DNA from: Gammaproteobacteria bacterium
Lineage (GTDB): Bacteria; Pseudomonadota; Gammaproteobacteria; Xanthomonadales; Wenzhouxiangellaceae
NCBI GenBank assembly: GCA_003567685.1
Contig: PWYW01000065.1
Coordinates: forward strand, 1-64,000
DNA: 64,000 nucleotides
Reading direction: 5' to 3'
This document shows positions 2,477 to 10,437 of this stretch, one piece after another. The number at the start of each line of letters is the position of its first letter. Within the stretch, counting starts at the first letter, position 1. The notes below the pieces were generated by a model that saw only the letters and a program-made list of their open reading frames with translations, ran no database searches and was not told the DNA's origin. The translations under genes and the position numbers were made by a program.

Positions 2477-3157
2477 TCAGGACCTCAACGCAGCAACCAC
2501 GGCTTCCGCCGTAGCGGCGGACGACGCCGGATTCTGCCCTGTGATCAATTTCCCGTCGATTACAACGTTCGAAGCCCAGTCACCGGCTCGGTGATAGCTG
2601 GCACCCTGTTTCTGCAGCTCGTCCTCCAGCAGGTAGGGCACTGTTTCGGTCAGTCCAACCGCCTCTTCTTCGCTATTGCTGAAGGCCGTCAGCTTTCGGC
2701 CTTTCAGAAAGGGCTCGCCTTGTGCCGTCTTCACCTTGAGAAATACCGCTGGAGCATGGCACACGGCCGAAACAACCTTGCCTTGAGCGGCAGCGCTTTT
2801 GATGAGTGCCTGGCTGTCGGTATCGGCGTACAGATCGTACAGGGGGCCGTGGCCACCAGGAAAGAATACGGCATCGAAACTGTCAATGGCTATATCGGCG
2901 AGCTTGTGCGTGGCCGATAATGCCTCCTTTGCCTTCTCATCGGCGGCGAAGCGACGCGTGTCTTCGGTCTGCGCGTCGTCATTTTCGCTGTTGGGATCGA
3001 TTGGCGGCTGGCCACCCGCCGGTGATGCCAGAGTGATGTCGGCACCGGCGTCCTTGAACACGTAGTACGGGGCAGCGAACTCTTCCAGCCAGAAGCCGGT
3101 CTTGTGCCCACTGTCGCCGAGCTCGGCATGGGAGGTCAGAATCATCAAAATCCTCAT
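2477..3157 (-). CDS. DJ-1/PfpI-family protein (Hsp31-like)
   Basis: A 226-residue protein of the type 1 glutamine amidotransferase-like DJ-1/PfpI superfamily. The start MRILMILTS is chosen because GGAG lies about 6 bases upstream. The nucleophile elbow A-V-C-H-A-P places the reactive cysteine at residue 133, the early acidic residue is in FWLEEF near residue 26, and FFPGGHGPLYD is the usual loop before the elbow. Length and the insert PIDPNSENDD resemble the HchA/Hsp31-like branch, whose members act as glyoxalase III or chaperone-like deglycases. It is the third gene in the same direction after the TonB receptor and the peptidase homologue, 72 bp behind the latter; whether it belongs to that pathway is unknown. 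Confidence 0.85.
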   Translation of the reverse strand: MRILMILTSHAELGDSGHKTGFWLEEFAAPYYVFKDAGADITLASPAGGQPPIDPNSENDDAQTEDTRRFAADEKAKEALSATHKLADIAIDSFDAVFFPGGHGPLYDLYADTDSQALIKSAAAQGKVVSAVCHAPAVFLKVKTAQGEPFLKGRKLTAFSNSEEEAVGLTETVPYLLEDELQKQGASYHRAGDWASNVVIDGKLITGQNPASSAATAEAVVAALRS

Positions 3158-3229
3158 ACGGTTCTCCATTGAATATCGACCCACCAGTGTGACGAAGCGC
3201 CGGTGAGCGCCCCGTTCAGGCAAGGCCAG

Positions 3230-4396
3230 TCAACAACGTTGAAGTCGAGCGGGTTCAGTCAGGTCCACCAACTGCCCCCCGGCCAGTGTGGCCACCCTCG
3301 ACAAATTGTCTTCGGTCAGCAACAAAGCATCGCCTCGCCCCCCTATATGCAGGCGACCGACATCGTTCAAGGCAAACAGTCGGGCCGGGTTGCGCGCTAC
3401 CACCGACAAGGCCACTGGAAGGGGCACGTTGTGATCGAGCACAGCCGACTGAAATGCCCGCAGCAGACTGCCGGGGTCAGCCACCTGGAAGCCAGTGAGC
3501 CGGCCATCGTCATCGAAGGCAGGCAGACTGGCCTGGCCGTCCGAGCTGAACGTGATTTGATCAGGCGGGATACCGTGGTCCAGGGCTCTTACAAGTGCTT
3601 GAGCTGCCGGCACTTCGCCAGCGTCAATAAATGCCTGGGTCGTGCTGGTGGTGAAATCGATGTGGCCGCCAGCCCGGGCGAACGCCAATGCCGCCTCAAA
3701 GGTGTGGGCGGTGCGATTGGCATGGGTTACCAGAAACGCCGAACGGGGAATCTCGGTGTGCTCAATCAGGGTCTCCAGACGTTCGAACGGCGCCAGGCCA
3801 TCACCCAGGTGCACGAGTACCATGCCGCGTTTGCCTGCCAGCAGGGCGCCCCGCCGGCATTCTGCGGTCAGCTCAGCCAGGGCACGCCAGTCAGACTGGG
3901 AGCCGCGATGGTCGGCAATGGCAACTTCGCCCAGACCGATCATTTCAGGAATCAGCAGCAGGTCACGTTCGACACTACCGATGAGTGTGGGGGGCGGCAC
4001 AGCGTAGGATCCGGTCAGGCAGAAGGCATTCAGCCCACGGCAGCGCAGCCCACGCACGGTGGCCAGCAGGTCGGCATGGCTGCGAGTGATGGCATCCGTG
4101 CCCAGGCAGCCAATGGCCGTGGTAATTCCGGCGGCAAATGCGGCTTCAGCCTCCAGCGGCCGGGTTCGACGGTCAAAGCCGCCCTCCCCGCCGCCGCCAG
4201 ACAAATGCACGAGGGGGTCGACCAGGCCAGGAACCAGCAAGCAACCCTGGCCGTCAAGTTGCCTGAGCGCCTGGCCAGGCAGGGAGGGCGGACTGATTGA
4301 GCCAGCCATGGAGACAATTCGTTCGTTGATGATCAAGACATCCATCGGGCCCTGGTCATCGGGCGCGAACACGTGCGCCTGCTTGATGAGGATCAT
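3230..4396 (-). CDS. Isoaspartyl dipeptidase (IadA) homologue lacking one metal-site histidine
   Basis: The 388 residues match the length and layout of IadA (beta-aspartyl dipeptidase, amidohydrolase superfamily, normally a binuclear zinc enzyme). Start MILIKQAH follows an AAAGGA site. Seen motifs: GGGGEGG with Glu71, LTGSYAVP with Tyr131, LLAGKRG with the bridging Lys189, LVHLGD with His196, VTHANR with His225 and SSDGQAS with Asp286. The HxH of strand 1, DQHVH in E. coli IadA, reads D-P-L-V-H here, so the first zinc-binding histidine is Leu62. It has no signal peptide, so it should be cytosolic, cleaving beta-Asp-X dipeptides if active. It lies 101 bp behind the TonB receptor, opposite a cyanophycinase gene. 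It could be an altered-metal enzyme, an inactive binding protein, or an assembly artefact. Confidence 0.88.
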   Translation of the reverse strand: MILIKQAHVFAPDDQGPMDVLIINERIVSMAGSISPPSLPGQALRQLDGQGCLLVPGLVDPLVHLSGGGGEGGFDRRTRPLEAEAAFAAGITTAIGCLGTDAITRSHADLLATVRGLRCRGLNAFCLTGSYAVPPPTLIGSVERDLLLIPEMIGLGEVAIADHRGSQSDWRALAELTAECRRGALLAGKRGMVLVHLGDGLAPFERLETLIEHTEIPRSAFLVTHANRTAHTFEAALAFARAGGHIDFTTSTTQAFIDAGEVPAAQALVRALDHGIPPDQITFSSDGQASLPAFDDDGRLTGFQVADPGSLLRAFQSAVLDHNVPLPVALSVVARNPARLFALNDVGRLHIGGRGDALLLTEDNLSRVATLAGGQLVDLTEPARLQRC

Positions 4397-4497: not shown

Positions 4498-7308
4498 TCA
4501 GTCGAAGCGCTGGTTGAAACGCAACAGGAAGTAGCGACCCATGGTGTTGTGATTGACGAAGTCAACGCCGGCGGCGGAGCCGAACACCGACGGCGGCGAG
4601 CGATCAAGAATATTGTCCACATCCAGCGTCAACCAGGCACTCTGCGTGAGGTCGTAAGACACGCTGGCTCCAAAGGTCAGCCAGGAGCCCACATTGATTG
4701 GCGAATCCGGCGACAGGCCGAATTCGTCCAGCACGTCCTGGCGCAAGCCCTCCAGATCATCCTTGTAGCCATGGGTGTAGTTGGCGCGAACACGACCACC
4801 CCAGCGCTCCCCGCGCCAGCGCAGCGAAGCATTGGCCAGCCAGCGCGGATAGCGCCACTCGCCTGCCAGCGACTCCGAGCCAGAGGTCGGCGAGAACTCC
4901 CGGTCAAAGCGGTTCAGGTAAGTACCATCCACGACCAGGCGAAGCGTGCCGAAACGATCCGTGTGGAATCGGTGACCCAGCGAAATATCCACCCCGTCGG
5001 TGGTCTGGAAACCAAAATTCTGGAGCGGCACGTTGGCCTGGGCAATGGCGCCACCTTCAAGAATCAAGCCTGGCATGCCTTGCGGCAGAGGGGCATCGCC
5101 GGCATCCAGGTCGACCACATTGAACTCCCCGGCGAAGGCACGGCGAATGAAATCCAGCTCGTCCAGGCCAACCAGGTCTTCATGGCGGATGTACCAGTAG
5201 TCAACCGTCAGGTCAGTATCCTGGCCAATCTGCCAGAGGAAGCCCAGCCCGATGTTCTCAGCCGTTTCAGGGTTCAGGCTGGGGTTGCCAAGCAATTCGG
5301 TATCAATGGCGTTGGCACCGCTGGCCTGGCCGCCGCAGGCTTCCGGCACCTGGTCGCAGGGGATGGAAAACGACGACAGGGTAATGCCGGCGCCAGACTG
5401 GGCCAGCGACGGCGCACGGAAGGAGGTGGACCAGGAGCCGCGCAAAATCAAACGATCCAGCGCCTGCCAGCGGAAAGCAACCTTGGGGTTAAAATCCGAA
5501 CCGAAGTCGTCGTAATGGTCGAAGCGGCCAGCCAGTTGCAGCTCGAAGTCATCGCTCAGAGGTACGTACAGCTCACCATAGGCTGAGTTCTGCTGGCGCT
5601 TGGCCTGGGCCTCGGTAAAGCTGAAGCGAAGCGTGGGTTCCGGGTTGTCGGCAGTCGAACGCGCCTCGGCGCTCGGGTCATCGCGAATGTCCTCGCGCCG
5701 GTGCTCGTAACCGAAGGCGCCCTTGACCCAGCGACCGTTGAACTCGAACAGATCACCCGAAGTGCGAACATCGAAACTGACCATTTCCGACTTGCCGCGG
5801 CGCTGGGCCGGCGTTCGCAGCAGACTGTCGATCAGCGGGTCCTGGTCTACCTGGCCAAAAAACGGGTTGTAGACCACGGTGCGACGGCCCAGGTCTTCGC
5901 AACTGGGGCCACCGACGAAGCTGGGGTTGCGGCCCAAAACGTTGTCCCAACGCTGGCCAAAGCTGCCGTCATCACACAGATTGGCCAGCATGGCCTGGCG
6001 GAATTCCAGTGTTCGGTACAAGCCTGCCACACCATCCTGGGTGGATTCACTGCGGCCGTAGCTGAGCGCACTTTCCCAGTCCCACTGGCCGATATTGCCG
6101 CGCAGTCCACTGGTGAAGCGAAGGGCATCGGTCTGCACCTCTACCTGGCGCGGATCGGGAAAGGCGCCCCAGGCAAAGATCGGGAAGCCAAAAAACTCGC
6201 TGAAATCATCGACACCGCCCTCGGCGTTGATGTCCCGCACCAGACCGTCAGGCCAGTCAATGCGGGAAGGGTCAACGGGGATGCGCGAAAACGGTGCCGG
6301 TGAGCTGGTGCCGCGCGAATCGACCCGGGTAAAGGAAAATTCGTTGAACCACTCGGTGCTGGCCGTCACGTCGACATTGAACAAGGCAGTCAACGAGCGC
6401 GACTCGAACTTGTCCCGGGTGGTCACAATCTGCCCACGGTCCAGCTCGCAGTACTCGCCAAACACGCCGTCGCCAACGAACTGGTCAGCCGGGCAGCCAC
6501 CATCGTCAGGCTTTTCGGTGATGTCGTCGAACATCAGGAAGAGATCGTTGAAGCTGGGAAAGATACCTTGCTGGGCTGGCCGGATTTCATTGCGCGTTTC
6601 GCGCCGGTCACGATCAAACAGCGGCTCGCGCTTAAACCAGTCGGCAATCAGCGTCGTCCGGCTGCGCTCGGTGCTGAAGCCAGCCGCGATATTAACGTTG
6701 TACCGACCATCGTTGCTGGAAGCACCCGAGTTGCCATAGCTGGCGGCCAATTCGATACCGTCCAGGTCATTGCGCAGGATAATGTTGACCACGCCGGCCA
6801 CGGCATCGGCACCGTAGATGGCCGAGGCGCCACTGGGCAGCACTTCGATCCGGTCGACGGCGGCCAGCGGAATAGTGTTGATGTCGACGAAACTGGCCTG
6901 GCGGTTGGCAAAGGACGATACTGCCACGCGCCGGCCGTTGACCAGGGTCAGCGCCGAGGCCGTGCCCAGGCCGCGCAGCGACACTCCGGCCGAACCGACC
7001 GGAGATGAGCTGGACAGCGCTCCGGCTGTCCGGGTCGAGAAGGTACCCTCGCCGCCCCCGGCAACGCTTAGTGTTTCAAACAGGTCGATCAGGTTGTCGG
7101 CACCCGACATTTCGATCTCTTCGCGATCAATGATGATCAGCGGTTGGGCACCTTCCAGGTCAATACCCTGGATTCGGGTGCCGGTCACGGTGATGGTGTC
7201 GCGCTCGGCTTCGCCGGACACTTCGGAGGTTTGTCCGACAGCCAGTTGCGAACTACCAAGCATGGCCAGGGCAACGCCTGACGCGGTGAGGTGAATCAGT
7301 GTTTTCAT
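4498..7308 (-). CDS. TonB-dependent outer-membrane receptor, putative peptide/amino-acid polymer fragment importer
   Basis: A 936-residue receptor. Start MKTLIHLTASG sits behind GGAGAGAGT; residues 1-26 are a signal peptide ending in AVGQ. A TonB-box-like DTITVTG follows at about residue 37, then the plug (GAQPLIIIDREEIEMSGADNLIDLFETL, with LRGLGTASALTLVNGRRVA), then a 22-strand-sized barrel ending in the aromatic C-terminus FLLRFNQRFD. The family takes up ligands too large for porins using TonB/ExbBD energy. Size and the VTGTRI plug resemble receptors that import peptides or saccharides more than siderophore receptors. It is divergent from the cyanophycinase gene (266 bp apart) and leads the peptidase-homologue gene, which suggests import of cyanophycin dipeptides or oligomers. 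The substrate is inferred from context only. Confidence 0.9.
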   Translation of the reverse strand: MKTLIHLTASGVALAMLGSSQLAVGQTSEVSGEAERDTITVTGTRIQGIDLEGAQPLIIIDREEIEMSGADNLIDLFETLSVAGGGEGTFSTRTAGALSSSSPVGSAGVSLRGLGTASALTLVNGRRVAVSSFANRQASFVDINTIPLAAVDRIEVLPSGASAIYGADAVAGVVNIILRNDLDGIELAASYGNSGASSNDGRYNVNIAAGFSTERSRTTLIADWFKREPLFDRDRRETRNEIRPAQQGIFPSFNDLFLMFDDITEKPDDGGCPADQFVGDGVFGEYCELDRGQIVTTRDKFESRSLTALFNVDVTASTEWFNEFSFTRVDSRGTSSPAPFSRIPVDPSRIDWPDGLVRDINAEGGVDDFSEFFGFPIFAWGAFPDPRQVEVQTDALRFTSGLRGNIGQWDWESALSYGRSESTQDGVAGLYRTLEFRQAMLANLCDDGSFGQRWDNVLGRNPSFVGGPSCEDLGRRTVVYNPFFGQVDQDPLIDSLLRTPAQRRGKSEMVSFDVRTSGDLFEFNGRWVKGAFGYEHRREDIRDDPSAEARSTADNPEPTLRFSFTEAQAKRQQNSAYGELYVPLSDDFELQLAGRFDHYDDFGSDFNPKVAFRWQALDRLILRGSWSTSFRAPSLAQSGAGITLSSFSIPCDQVPEACGGQASGANAIDTELLGNPSLNPETAENIGLGFLWQIGQDTDLTVDYWYIRHEDLVGLDELDFIRRAFAGEFNVVDLDAGDAPLPQGMPGLILEGGAIAQANVPLQNFGFQTTDGVDISLGHRFHTDRFGTLRLVVDGTYLNRFDREFSPTSGSESLAGEWRYPRWLANASLRWRGERWGGRVRANYTHGYKDDLEGLRQDVLDEFGLSPDSPINVGSWLTFGASVSYDLTQSAWLTLDVDNILDRSPPSVFGSAAGVDFVNHNTMGRYFLLRFNQRFD

Positions 7309-7573
7309 GGGACTCTCTCCAGTCTGTTGACGAATGCCACCACCGGCCACAGGGCGGCAGGACGTCATTCGAAAAGGCATTGCAGACAGGCCACCGGGTG
7401 GTGGCAGAGAGCGATCTATTCGTCGAACCACTCGCTCAGGTAAAAGCTCCTGAGACGGAAGGCATGCGGCTCGGGTGGACGAACCGGCAGGGCGACAGAG
7501 GATTTCGTTGTCATGGCCCCGAGATTACAGTAGCGTGAAAAGCCAAGTCAACTGATTGCCCCGGTGTAGCCCC
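7309..7573. promoter_or_regulatory. Divergent control region between receptor and cyanophycinase genes
   Basis: This 265-bp stretch separates two divergent genes and must hold both promoters. I see a good ribosome site for the receptor (GGAGAGAG on the minus strand) but none for the cyanophycinase, and no clear -35/-10 pair. A CysB-type regulator gene follows the cyanophycinase, so this is the natural place for its operator; I could not identify one by eye. Confidence 0.4.
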
Positions 7574-9244
7574 TTGAACCGAGTTTCCGCCCCACTGTTT
7601 TACTCCGTCCTTGTTTTTGCAGGCATCGGCCTGGCCTGGCCGTTGGCGGCGAAGGCCACCGTGGTGCTGGTCGGTGGGCACCTGCCGGTTTGCACCTCGA
7701 TGACTCCGAGCCAATGCAAGGGCGAGCCAGATTGGCCCAGCGAGGCCCGTGCTGTGGATCATTTCCTGGTCGATGCCAAACGGATTGAAGCCTGGCAGTC
7801 CAGTGCCGCGGGGGTATTCAGCGAGCAAGACATCGACGCATGGACGCGACTGCTGCAGGCGATTGCCGAGGCGAATCCGAAGCAAGCGCTCAGCCGGCGG
7901 GAGCTAGGCGCGCAAATTCGACAGCACGACGAATCCAGGCTTGAAGATCGGGCGGATGACCGTCAGTGGAACCATCTATTCGACCATTTCCAACGGCCGA
8001 CCAGCGGTCAGCCGGAGCAGGTGCGACTGGCCGACAGCCAGAACCGCCATGCGGTCGAGGTTTTCGAACGCGTGGTAGCCCTTGCCGCCGACATCAGCGG
8101 CAAGGAGCGACCGGTGATCGCCGTGTCCACGGCATCAGCTCGTGACCCTTATGACGCGCTGGATTTCTATCTGCACGCTTTTGCCGAGGCCGGCGCCGAG
8201 GCGGTGTGGCTGCCACTGGATGCCGCAGTGCGCGCCGCGCGCGACAACGACGCTTGCGACCAGCTTGCCGACTACCAGGCCCGCGAGCTGGGAAGCTTCC
8301 GACGCGACGAGGTGTGGCCAGAACGTTTCGCTGAACAACAGGCGTTTTGTGCCAGCCCCTCTGCAGGCCTTGCCATGGTTTCCGCGATTGATGGCCTGTT
8401 TATCAACGGCGGCGACCAATGGCTGACCCTGCATGCTTTCAGGCACGAAGACGGCGAGGCCACACTGGAGCTTCGGCGCCTTCTGGAGCGCCTGAACAAG
8501 GGCCAACTACTCATTGGTGGCACCAGCGCGGGCGCGGCCGTCCAGTCAGGCGCCGACATGATTTCCAACGGTAGTAACCTGGCGGGACTGCGCGATGGCG
8601 CCATTGCCAGCCCGCCACCGCCGCCCGGCTGCGAGCGTTCCGGGAATTGTCCGGAGGGACTGCGCGGAGACAGCCTTACCTGGCATCCCGCCGGCGGCCT
8701 GGGCACGGTAACCGACGCCATCGTTGACACCCATTTCTCCGAGCGCCATCGCCAGCTTCGGCTATCCCGGCTGCTGATGGACAGCCAACGAACTCTCGGA
8801 GTTGGTGTGGATGAAACCACGGCCCTGGTGCTTCGCCGGGACCACGGTGAAGCGCATTTCGAGGTGGTTGGCGCCGGCGCTGCCTGGCTGGTGGACGCCA
8901 GCCAGGCCAAGTTGACGCGGCGCCAGGGTTCAGGACGGCACCTTGATGCCATTCACAATATCTCGCTGTTGTCACTGCCTGCTGGTAGCGTCGGTGCCTG
9001 GCCCGTCGACTTGCCGGCAACCGAGGCAGTGGCGACGAACCCCGGTATGACCTGCACGCCGCTGGACCAATGGCCATCTTTCAGCAGCTGGATCAACCAG
9101 CGCGCGACCGATGTTGGCTCCACCCAGTGCCTCAGCGTGGTCGACGCTTACCAGGCCTTGCTGACAGAATTTCGAACCGACAGGACGCTTCGCCGCTTTC
9201 AACTGGATATCGTTCCCGACGACCCGACCGACCAAGTCCCTTGA
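7574..9244 (+). CDS. Secreted cyanophycinase (peptidase family S51)
   Basis: About 556 residues, beginning at a TTG codon (7574; another in-frame TTG is at 7556; there is no nearby ATG). The N-terminus LFYSVLVFAGIGLAW...AKA is a signal peptide. Family S51 serine hydrolases cut cyanophycin, multi-L-arginyl-poly-L-aspartate, into beta-Asp-Arg dipeptides. The elbow G-G-T-S-A-G-A-A puts the nucleophile Ser at about residue 318; DTHFSERHRQLRL and GVDETTALVL are the other hallmark segments of cyanophycinases. The chain is longer than cytosolic CphB (~270 residues), with an extra N-terminal region of ~150 residues and a C-terminal tail, as in exported CphE-type enzymes. No cyanophycin synthetase gene is in the window, so degradation of foreign polymer is more likely than turnover of a store. 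Confidence 0.88.
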   Translation: MNRVSAPLFYSVLVFAGIGLAWPLAAKATVVLVGGHLPVCTSMTPSQCKGEPDWPSEARAVDHFLVDAKRIEAWQSSAAGVFSEQDIDAWTRLLQAIAEANPKQALSRRELGAQIRQHDESRLEDRADDRQWNHLFDHFQRPTSGQPEQVRLADSQNRHAVEVFERVVALAADISGKERPVIAVSTASARDPYDALDFYLHAFAEAGAEAVWLPLDAAVRAARDNDACDQLADYQARELGSFRRDEVWPERFAEQQAFCASPSAGLAMVSAIDGLFINGGDQWLTLHAFRHEDGEATLELRRLLERLNKGQLLIGGTSAGAAVQSGADMISNGSNLAGLRDGAIASPPPPPGCERSGNCPEGLRGDSLTWHPAGGLGTVTDAIVDTHFSERHRQLRLSRLLMDSQRTLGVGVDETTALVLRRDHGEAHFEVVGAGAAWLVDASQAKLTRRQGSGRHLDAIHNISLLSLPAGSVGAWPVDLPATEAVATNPGMTCTPLDQWPSFSSWINQRATDVGSTQCLSVVDAYQALLTEFRTDRTLRRFQLDIVPDDPTDQVP

Positions 9245-9326: not shown

Positions 9327-9423
9327 GTCGGCAATCGTCGCCTTCCTCTTTGTTCCCTGAATTTCCAGTCCCCGCAGCCGCCCGGCGTCCTTGTCAATCG
9401 AGGTCGAGAGGAATGGGACCGTC

Positions 9424-10437
9424 ATGAAACTTCAGCAACTGCGCTTTTTCGTCGCCGTCATTGATCACGGACTGAACATCACCCAGGCTGCCGAGGCGCT
9501 GTATACCTCGCAACCGGGCGTGAGCAAACAGATCCGGCTGCTGGAAAGCGAGTTGGGCATGCGCCTGTTCGTTCGCCAGGGCAAACGCCTGGAAGCCTTG
9601 ACGCCAGCCGGGGAACGGGTGGCCGATCACGCCCGCCGCGTGCTGGATGAAGTAACCCGAATCAAACACTTGTCGTCGGCACTGCGCGAAGAGGAGCGCG
9701 GCACCATCCGGCTGGCTACCACCCACACCCAGGCCCGCTATGTGCTGCCGTCGGTGATTGATCGTTTCCGTCGCAAGCATGCCCAGGTGGATTTTCATCT
9801 GCACCAGGGTACGTCCGAGCAGATCGCCCGGATGATTGACGAGCGCCAGGTTGATTTCGCCCTGATATCCGGACAGGTGTCTGAACTGGGGCAGCTTCAG
9901 TCGATTCCCATTTACCAATGGGACCGGGTGGTGCTGGTGCCGGCAGACCACCCGTTGGCCCGTCATGAAGGCAAACCGGACCTGGCCACGCTGGCCGAGC
10001 ATCCGCTGGTGACCTATGTGCACAGCGACCGACCGGAATCTTCGCTGATGAAGAGTTTCAATGCCGAGGGTCTGTCGCCGCGGATTGCCTTTACTGCCCG
10101 CGATGCCGACATCATCAAGACCTATGTTCGTCTCGGGCTGGGCGTGGGCATCGTAGCGTCGATGGCAGTCGATGCAAAAGCCGACAGCGACTTGGTGGCC
10201 CTCGACGCGACCGGCCTTTTCCCGCGCCTGACCACCTGGCTGGCGTATCGCGATGACCTGGTTTTGAACACCTATCATTGCAATTTCATCCGGGAACTGG
10301 CCCCCCACTTACCCGATGCCCTGTTTACCGCCCTGAAGCGGGAAGGCCCGGATGCCGAACCGCACAAACATCTGGACGACGCACCACCGTTACACCAGCC
10401 CCATCGAAGCCTGTTGTGTGCTGGCGGACGCTGCTGA
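9424..10437 (+). CDS. LysR-family regulator, CysB/Cbl type
   Basis: A 337-residue regulator; the start MKLQQLRFF follows GAGAGGA. The winged HTH (residues 1-60) contains LYTSQPGVSKQIRLLE, and the effector domain carries the CysB signature ATTHTQARYVLP and TARDADIIKTYVRLGLGVG with IASMAVD, all close to enteric CysB. CysB proteins sense sulfur metabolites; close relatives sense other small molecules. The C-terminal ~25 residues (GPDAEPHKHLDD...) are a non-conserved tail. The gene follows the cyanophycinase by 179 bp on the same strand. Either it controls the polymer-scavenging genes, linking nitrogen or amino-acid supply, or it is the global cysteine regulator that happens to lie here. Context cannot decide. 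Confidence 0.88.
   Translation: MKLQQLRFFVAVIDHGLNITQAAEALYTSQPGVSKQIRLLESELGMRLFVRQGKRLEALTPAGERVADHARRVLDEVTRIKHLSSALREEERGTIRLATTHTQARYVLPSVIDRFRRKHAQVDFHLHQGTSEQIARMIDERQVDFALISGQVSELGQLQSIPIYQWDRVVLVPADHPLARHEGKPDLATLAEHPLVTYVHSDRPESSLMKSFNAEGLSPRIAFTARDADIIKTYVRLGLGVGIVASMAVDAKADSDLVALDATGLFPRLTTWLAYRDDLVLNTYHCNFIRELAPHLPDALFTALKREGPDAEPHKHLDDAPPLHQPHRSLLCAGGRC

Follow-up and report, generated by a model that had tools for sequence, protein, structure and literature searches.

We have identified a branch of the isoaspartyl dipeptidases (IadA), a well-studied family of binuclear zinc peptidases, in which the first histidine of the HxH zinc motif is replaced by leucine. The replacement goes back to a single change and is conserved in all 28 sequences of the branch, with the rest of the active site intact. 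The member described here lies in a stretch of 64,000 nt analysed as a whole (the window). Judging from sequence and gene context, we consider it likely that the 'Leu-type' proteins are a subfamily of type I IadA active on beta-aspartyl dipeptides from scavenged cyanophycin, with an alpha-metal that is weakly held or absent.

The gene and the Leu62 position

The gene and the codon in question are located as follows:

3230..4396, minus strand: Leu-type isoaspartyl dipeptidase (iadA homologue), 388 aa, ATG at 4396
4211..4213, minus strand: Leu62, codon CTC, at the first-His position of the HxH zinc motif (E. coli H68, FiBAP H61, LmIadA H64)

This iadA gene is the sole IadA match in the genome of the window (G000; 2.7 Mb, 99.6% complete). 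Its product has no signal peptide by eye and passes the NCBIfam equivalog model TIGR01975 (357.5 bits; cut-off 331.25). An AF2 model, built from 12 sequences, reached a mean pLDDT of 87.6 and a pTM of 0.91; local pLDDT was moderate near the metal site (∼78 for residues 61–70, 63 for 71–80 and 61 for 161–170). The top fold match was 8dqn (LmIadA; Z 52.1, rmsd 1.9, 373 aligned). The 14 best solved fold matches were all IadA structures (Z 48.1–52.1), the next superfamily member having Z 31.0.

On the minus strand, positions 4225–4202 read ctg gtc gac ccc ctc gtg cat ttg (L-V-D-P-L-V-H-L). In HMMER alignments Leu62 faces, within a gapless block, the first HxH His of E. coli IadA (1onw) and of Fervidobacterium FiBAP (7cdh). 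The codon and the alignments agree that the replacement of the first zinc His, read earlier in the motif D-P-L-V-H, is real. The canonical HxH of beta-strand 1 is not present in the window protein or in 27 relatives, all of which have LxH. A misalignment at residue 62 was considered and rejected: the block D-x-[LH]-x-H-x-x-GGGGE is gapless in all full-length rows listed.

Distribution, phylogeny and selection

Homologues were searched for in 61 relatives, in samples of the order, class and phylum (398, 369 and 299 genomes, respectively) and in one genome collection (12 loci). The sets overlap; in the order, class and phylum samples scoring was confined to a few top candidates per genome, and absences there are accordingly not strict. 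Deduplicated IadA proteins, together with E. coli K-12 IadA as a yardstick, gave 105 non-redundant homologues; tblastn matches weaker than E 1e-20 and contig-end fragments were omitted. Residue 62 is Leu in 28 of these homologues, His in 77 ('His-type') and any other residue in none. Three omitted partial matches cover residue 62, with Leu in G118 (DVLTHPC) and His in G139 and G147; fragments lacking the residue (G005, G168 and a second one in G147) are not informative on this point. The G139 match (L197, G139:C109) is a His-type IadA whose coding sequence, close to a contig end, is divided between two frames and, for this reason, appears to be broken or misassembled. The earlier note had named orthologues all carrying His as the outcome that would mark Leu62 as an error or a strain mutation; instead, 28/28 clade members carry Leu and 77/77 others His.

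Pairwise identity among the Leu-type proteins is 38–97% (median 49), and 30–48% between them and the His-type proteins (28 versus 77 sequences). Named hosts are Wenzhouxiangella, Lysobacteraceae, Silanimonas, Exilibacterium and Kangiellaceae. The remaining members all belong to the class of the window, and the phylum sample added none beyond it, so that in our sample the LxH type is confined to one proteobacterial class. The carriers include genomes of one to three contigs (G039, G236, G976 and G958, the last two being one-contig genomes). Loci L125–L128 (G067, G051, G211 and G214) and L196 (G118) are set apart within the Leu-type by the motif D[AV]LTHPCGGGGEG and are referred to below as the LTHPC subgroup.

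An IQ-TREE tree was built for 88 of the homologues with column 62 left out. The Leu-type sequences make up one side of one branch (support 100/98; 100% of 200 bootstrap trees), and one change is enough to account for residue 62. We take His as ancestral because E. coli, Bacillota and other His-type rows surround the Leu clade, outgroup rooting being imperfect (1 of 3 outgroup rows fell on the wrong side). The internal branch length of the clade is 13.2 substitutions per site, with 53 of 394 columns invariant; across the 88 sequences, column 62 is the sole column that is invariant in both groups and yet different between them. Leu is encoded by five codons in the 28 members (CTG 16, CTC 7, TTA 2, CTT 2, TTG 1), and dN/dS (NG86) is 0.075–0.178 in six close Leu-type pairs, a seventh pair giving no value; it is therefore the amino acid that is held, not the DNA. 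At the level of sequence, Leu62 has the appearance of a stable remodelling of the metal site that a whole branch of the family shares.

The remainder of the active site

The other residues of the site map to the minus strand of the window:

4205..4207, minus strand: His64, the second motif His, retained as an alpha-metal ligand; the same in 28/28 Leu-type and 77/77 His-type sequences
4184..4186, minus strand: Glu71, substrate-binding Glu (E. coli E77); invariant in 105/105
4004..4006, minus strand: Tyr131, catalytic Tyr (E. coli Y137, CpsIadA Y140; role from the part of PMC5517026 available); invariant in 105/105
3926..3928, minus strand: Glu157, metal-bridging, in GLGEVAIADHR; Glu in 28/28 Leu-type sequences
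3809..3811, minus strand: His196, beta-metal ligand; invariant in 105/105
3722..3724, minus strand: His225, beta-metal ligand; invariant in 105/105
3539..3541, minus strand: Asp286, alpha-metal ligand (E. coli D285; a ligand in FiBAP and CpsIadA according to excerpts of their descriptions); invariant in 105/105

His64, Glu71, Thr100, Tyr131, Glu157, Arg164, His196, His225, Arg228 and Asp286 are identical in 28/28 Leu-type proteins. Asp286 we take to be the general base. The ligand list of the earlier note holds for His64, Glu71, Tyr131, His196, His225 and Asp286; it fails for Lys189, which is ruled out as the bridging ligand, as Glu157 aligns with the bridging position of known IadA enzymes. 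That position is occupied by carbamylated Lys162 in E. coli IadA and by Glu166 in CpsIadA (PMC5517026), Glu159 in LmIadA and Glu156 in FiBAP (PMC7774594). With Glu157 as the bridging residue, the window protein is thus a type I (Glu) IadA.

In FiBAP the zinc called alpha in the older naming has the ligands H61, H63, E156 and D285; E156 is shared with the second zinc, whose remaining ligands are H195 and H224 (excerpts of PMC7774594). By this ligand set, the Leu-type proteins have exactly one of four alpha ligands replaced. The available text on CpsIadA gives only His73, Glu166 and Asp293 as ligands of ZN1 (PMC5517026), which hints, by analogy, that the first His may count less in some type I enzymes; the corresponding passages on FiBAP (PMC7774594) and LmIadA both give the first and the second His as ligands.

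Besides column 62, the columns conserved in the Leu-type and rare in the His-type proteins are D19, A29, S130, G183, G244, S251, G260, S310, A318 and L359 (the Ala of column 29 is Ser in the window protein). S130 adjoins the catalytic Tyr, and S251 and G260 are situated in the loop after strand 245–249. No His, Cys or Glu that might serve as a replacement ligand occurs among the Leu-type-specific columns, the sole acidic residue, D19, sitting in an N-terminal strand; water or the backbone may still supply a ligand to the alpha-metal.

Gene neighbourhood

Upstream of iadA, the window contains

4498..7308, minus strand: TonB-dependent receptor (Pfam Plug and TonB barrel domains), same strand as iadA and immediately upstream of it
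7556..9244, plus strand: long cyanophycinase-like S51 protein, 562 aa, showing by eye a signal-like N-terminus and a GTSAG motif; its gene and the TonB gene are divergent
9391..10437, plus strand: LysR-type regulator, CysB-like, beside the cluster

The S51 gene is 3.2 kb from iadA, with the TonB gene between them. Its product scores 24.9 bits against PF03575, over the cut-off of 23.9, and 102.4 bits against TIGR02069; the latter score is below the cut-off of 126.6, so its assignment as a cyanophycinase is tentative. No match to CphA1 (TIGR02068) over cut-off was found in the window genome. The LysR gene had no tblastn match in other Leu-type neighbourhoods. A DJ-1/PfpI-family gene (2477–3163) comes after iadA on the same strand; it too was not seen by tblastn as a neighbour at other Leu-type loci.

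Among the 28 Leu-type loci (the window counted whole), an S51 homologue was found at 20, a TonB receptor, by tblastn, at 22 (including one match at 26% identity and one partial match at a contig end) and both at 19. The TonB receptor of the window was matched in 0/39 His-type neighbourhoods (tblastn). The Leu-type S51 ORFs uncut by a contig end are 432–780 aa long (mechanical calls), and a signal-like N-terminus was recognized by eye in 18 of the 19 S51 ORFs listed, the start of the one at L120 being ambiguous. A DcuC-like carrier ORF is found beside iadA in nine Leu-type loci, with PF03606 detected in 3/3 tested. Genome G871 has two Leu-type IadA copies (L131 and L134), each accompanied by a separate S51 gene.

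No S51 gene was found within the fetched DNA at 8/28 Leu-type loci (L116, L119, L123, L125–L128 and L132), and hence context does not indicate cyanophycin as the substrate in all of them. Locus L116 ends at a contig end, and L125–L128 belong to the LTHPC subgroup, for which a different substrate is possible. At L125 iadA is located between a DcuC-like carrier gene and a TonB gene, and at L126 near a DUF885 gene. At locus L123 (G362) the gene for arginine N-succinyltransferase (AstA) is found near a Leu-type iadA and a distantly related TonB gene, an arrangement that fits arginine catabolism.

Cyanophycinase genes were searched for in 59 His-type and 21 Leu-type genomes, with distances measured match to match. 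A cyanophycinase over the TIGR02069 cut-off is situated within 350 bp of iadA in 54/59 His-type genomes and 2.7–2.9 kb off in three (G551, G661 and G835); G902 and G906 have none over this cut-off. In the 21 Leu-type genomes, none of the S51 proteins beside iadA reaches the TIGR02069 cut-off; a further cyanophycinase over the cut-off is encoded elsewhere in 8/21 (G016, G039, G051, G059, G067, G073, G211 and G214). The cyanophycinase beside a His-type iadA is short, whereas the S51 gene of the Leu-type loci is long and secreted-looking. By their sequences, the long cyanophycinase-like proteins look like a separate secreted branch of S51 that annotation may overlook.

CphA1 was found over cut-off in only 7/21 Leu-type genomes (the CphA model gives matches in 14/14 control genomes, and only those over cut-off, 1/14 in the controls, were counted). 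IaaA (PF01112) is present in 18/21 Leu-type genomes, including that of the window, and PF24827 proteins in 20/21, where the family could conceal an M14-type cyanophycin dipeptide hydrolase; another enzyme could thus do the job of IadA, the PF24827 count itself telling little about alternative dipeptidases because AstE/AspA-like proteins score as well. Two genomes, G016 and G028, have both IadA types. Another two, G067 and G051, have cphA and cphB with no IaaA, no second IadA among the candidates scored and no PF24827 match on the contig of cphA/cphB; the Leu-type protein is therefore their only dipeptidase seen from the IaaA and IadA families.

Comparison with known systems

The window protein shares with the type I enzymes FiBAP (7cdh/7cf6), CpsIadA (5xgw/5xgx) and LmIadA (8dqn) the fold, the family model and the Glu bridge, and the Tyr, Arg, Thr, Glu and beta-metal His residues of these enzymes are all kept. 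FiBAP is the top solved match by sequence (281.6 bits); LmIadA tops the fold list, several E. coli IadA entries following at a Z difference of no more than 1. The differences are LxH in place of HxH; the loop that follows strand 245–249, with S251 and G260 where His-type homologues mostly have F and D; and a location beside a long cyanophycinase-like gene and a TonB receptor gene rather than beside cphB and cphA. The type II enzyme of E. coli has the family and the active-site layout in common with the window protein (38–39% identity in structural alignment) but has carbamylated Lys162 and both His residues where the window protein has Glu157 and Leu62.

A parallel loss of HxH is known in N-acetylglucosamine-6-phosphate deacetylase (NagA), whose two-metal HXH motif is QXN in the single-metal enzymes of E. 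coli and V. cholerae; a mutant with HXH changed to QXN lost stability but remained active, with a 7-fold higher Km (excerpts of PMC6016474). NagA thus retains activity on one metal. However, in the single-metal NagA enzymes both HxH residues are changed, whereas in the Leu-type proteins only the first is, with the beta-metal ligands kept; moreover, NagA acts on another substrate and its kinship to IadA is at the level of fold only.

Clusters that scavenge cyanophycin, with genes for cyanophycinase, isoaspartyl dipeptidase and transport together and often without cphA1, have been described (excerpts of PMC10206079). A TonB gene is adjacent to a cyanophycinase gene in Citromicrobium (PMC3400609, in part), and Pseudoalteromonas tunicata has a secreted putative cyanophycinase (PMC2536512, in part). 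In a soda-lake consortium Wenzhouxiangella took up cyanobacterial carbon and six members encode cyanophycinase, Wenzhouxiangella not being identified among these six in the available part of the account (PMC8880816). A changed metal ligand of the dipeptidase is not mentioned in the excerpts of the scavenging-cluster accounts (PMC10206079, PMC3400609).

Proposed function and alternative explanations

The sequences show that the first alpha-metal His was replaced by Leu once, that the Leu has been kept since and that the remaining site is invariant. For activity, substrate, transport and metal number we infer the following scheme. The secreted cyanophycinase would cut foreign cyanophycin, the TonB receptor, joined in some loci by the DcuC-family carrier, would import the dipeptides and the cytosolic Leu-type IadA would split them, chiefly beta-Asp-Arg. 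In the active site, the beta-metal on His196, His225 and Glu157 would polarize the amide together with Tyr131, and Asp286 would activate the water; the alpha-metal, down to His64, Glu157 and Asp286, would be weak and exchangeable, or absent. Of the three readings offered in the earlier note (an error, a binding protein and an enzyme with a changed metal site), the sequence evidence leaves the last as the favoured one.

As a special case of this explanation, the enzyme may be strictly single-metal, with the alpha site empty and the beta-metal working alone as in E. coli NagA. The amide is polarized by the beta-metal in E. coli IadA, the lost residue is a ligand of the alpha-metal only and all beta ligands are invariant; the QXN enzymes set a single-metal precedent within the superfamily (PMC6016474, in part). 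Yet His64 is invariant in 28/28, whereas the single-metal NagA enzymes changed both motif residues, and three alpha ligands remain (His64, Glu157 and Asp286), the same set that the available text on CpsIadA gives for ZN1 (PMC5517026). The invariant His64 argues for a weak alpha-metal and the NagA precedent for an absent one; we regard a strictly empty site as possible but somewhat doubtful.

A second alternative is an active enzyme that now prefers something other than cyanophycin dipeptides, such as isoaspartyl peptides from proteins, with Leu62 as part of a reshaped pocket. Consistent with such a shift are the covarying S130 beside the catalytic Tyr, S251 and G260 around the position of the LmIadA loop T251–Y262 (described as near the active-site opening in the available part of the LmIadA text), the LTHPC loci L125–L128 with no S51 gene nearby and the description, in the same source, of LmIadA, itself from a cyanophycin cluster, as unspecific. 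Against it, an S51 gene is present at 20/28 Leu-type loci and the residues binding the Asp moiety of the substrate have stayed the same, which makes a general shift unlikely.

Loss of metal ligands gave rise to non-enzymatic relatives in the superfamily (the CRMP proteins), and most Leu-type genomes hold IaaA as a possible substitute; an IadA descendant that has lost catalysis and serves as a sensor or, as the earlier note had entertained, as a binding protein would be in line with both. Nevertheless, only one ligand is changed; Asp286, Tyr131, both beta-metal His and the other ligands are invariant in 28/28 sequences over 13.2 substitutions per site, dN/dS stays at 0.075–0.178 in the six pairs, and G067 and G051, despite their cphA and cphB genes, yielded neither IaaA nor, among the candidates scored, a His-type IadA. 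We consider a dead protein quite improbable. Finally, a sequencing error or a recent strain mutation, suggested by CTC being one base from CAC, is virtually excluded by Leu in 28/28 non-redundant clade members with five different codons, 13.2 substitutions per site and two one-contig genomes.

Novelty and implications

Cyanophycin-scavenging clusters as such are already known (PMC10206079, in part); as far as the open-access full-text literature searched is concerned, what is new is that a putatively scavenging branch of IadA has lost a metal ligand and that this loss is fixed. In that literature, a search for a mononuclear isoaspartyl dipeptidase matched, by title, only work on L-asparaginase. 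Going further, we would tentatively suggest that LxH marks a third natural type of isoaspartyl dipeptidase, with one firm metal, which might have evolved once along with an outer-membrane route for taking up foreign cyanophycin, the two-metal type being left for the cell's own polymer.

TIGR01975 cannot separate Leu-type from His-type proteins, the window protein itself passing the equivalog cut-off, while a single residue marks the IadA of clusters that look polymer-scavenging as opposed to polymer-storing. The Leu clade, with the rest of the site kept, is a natural experiment on the need for the second metal. Its sequences and gene context suggest that the Leu-type IadA probably completes the degradation of a polymer in which other microbes store nitrogen.
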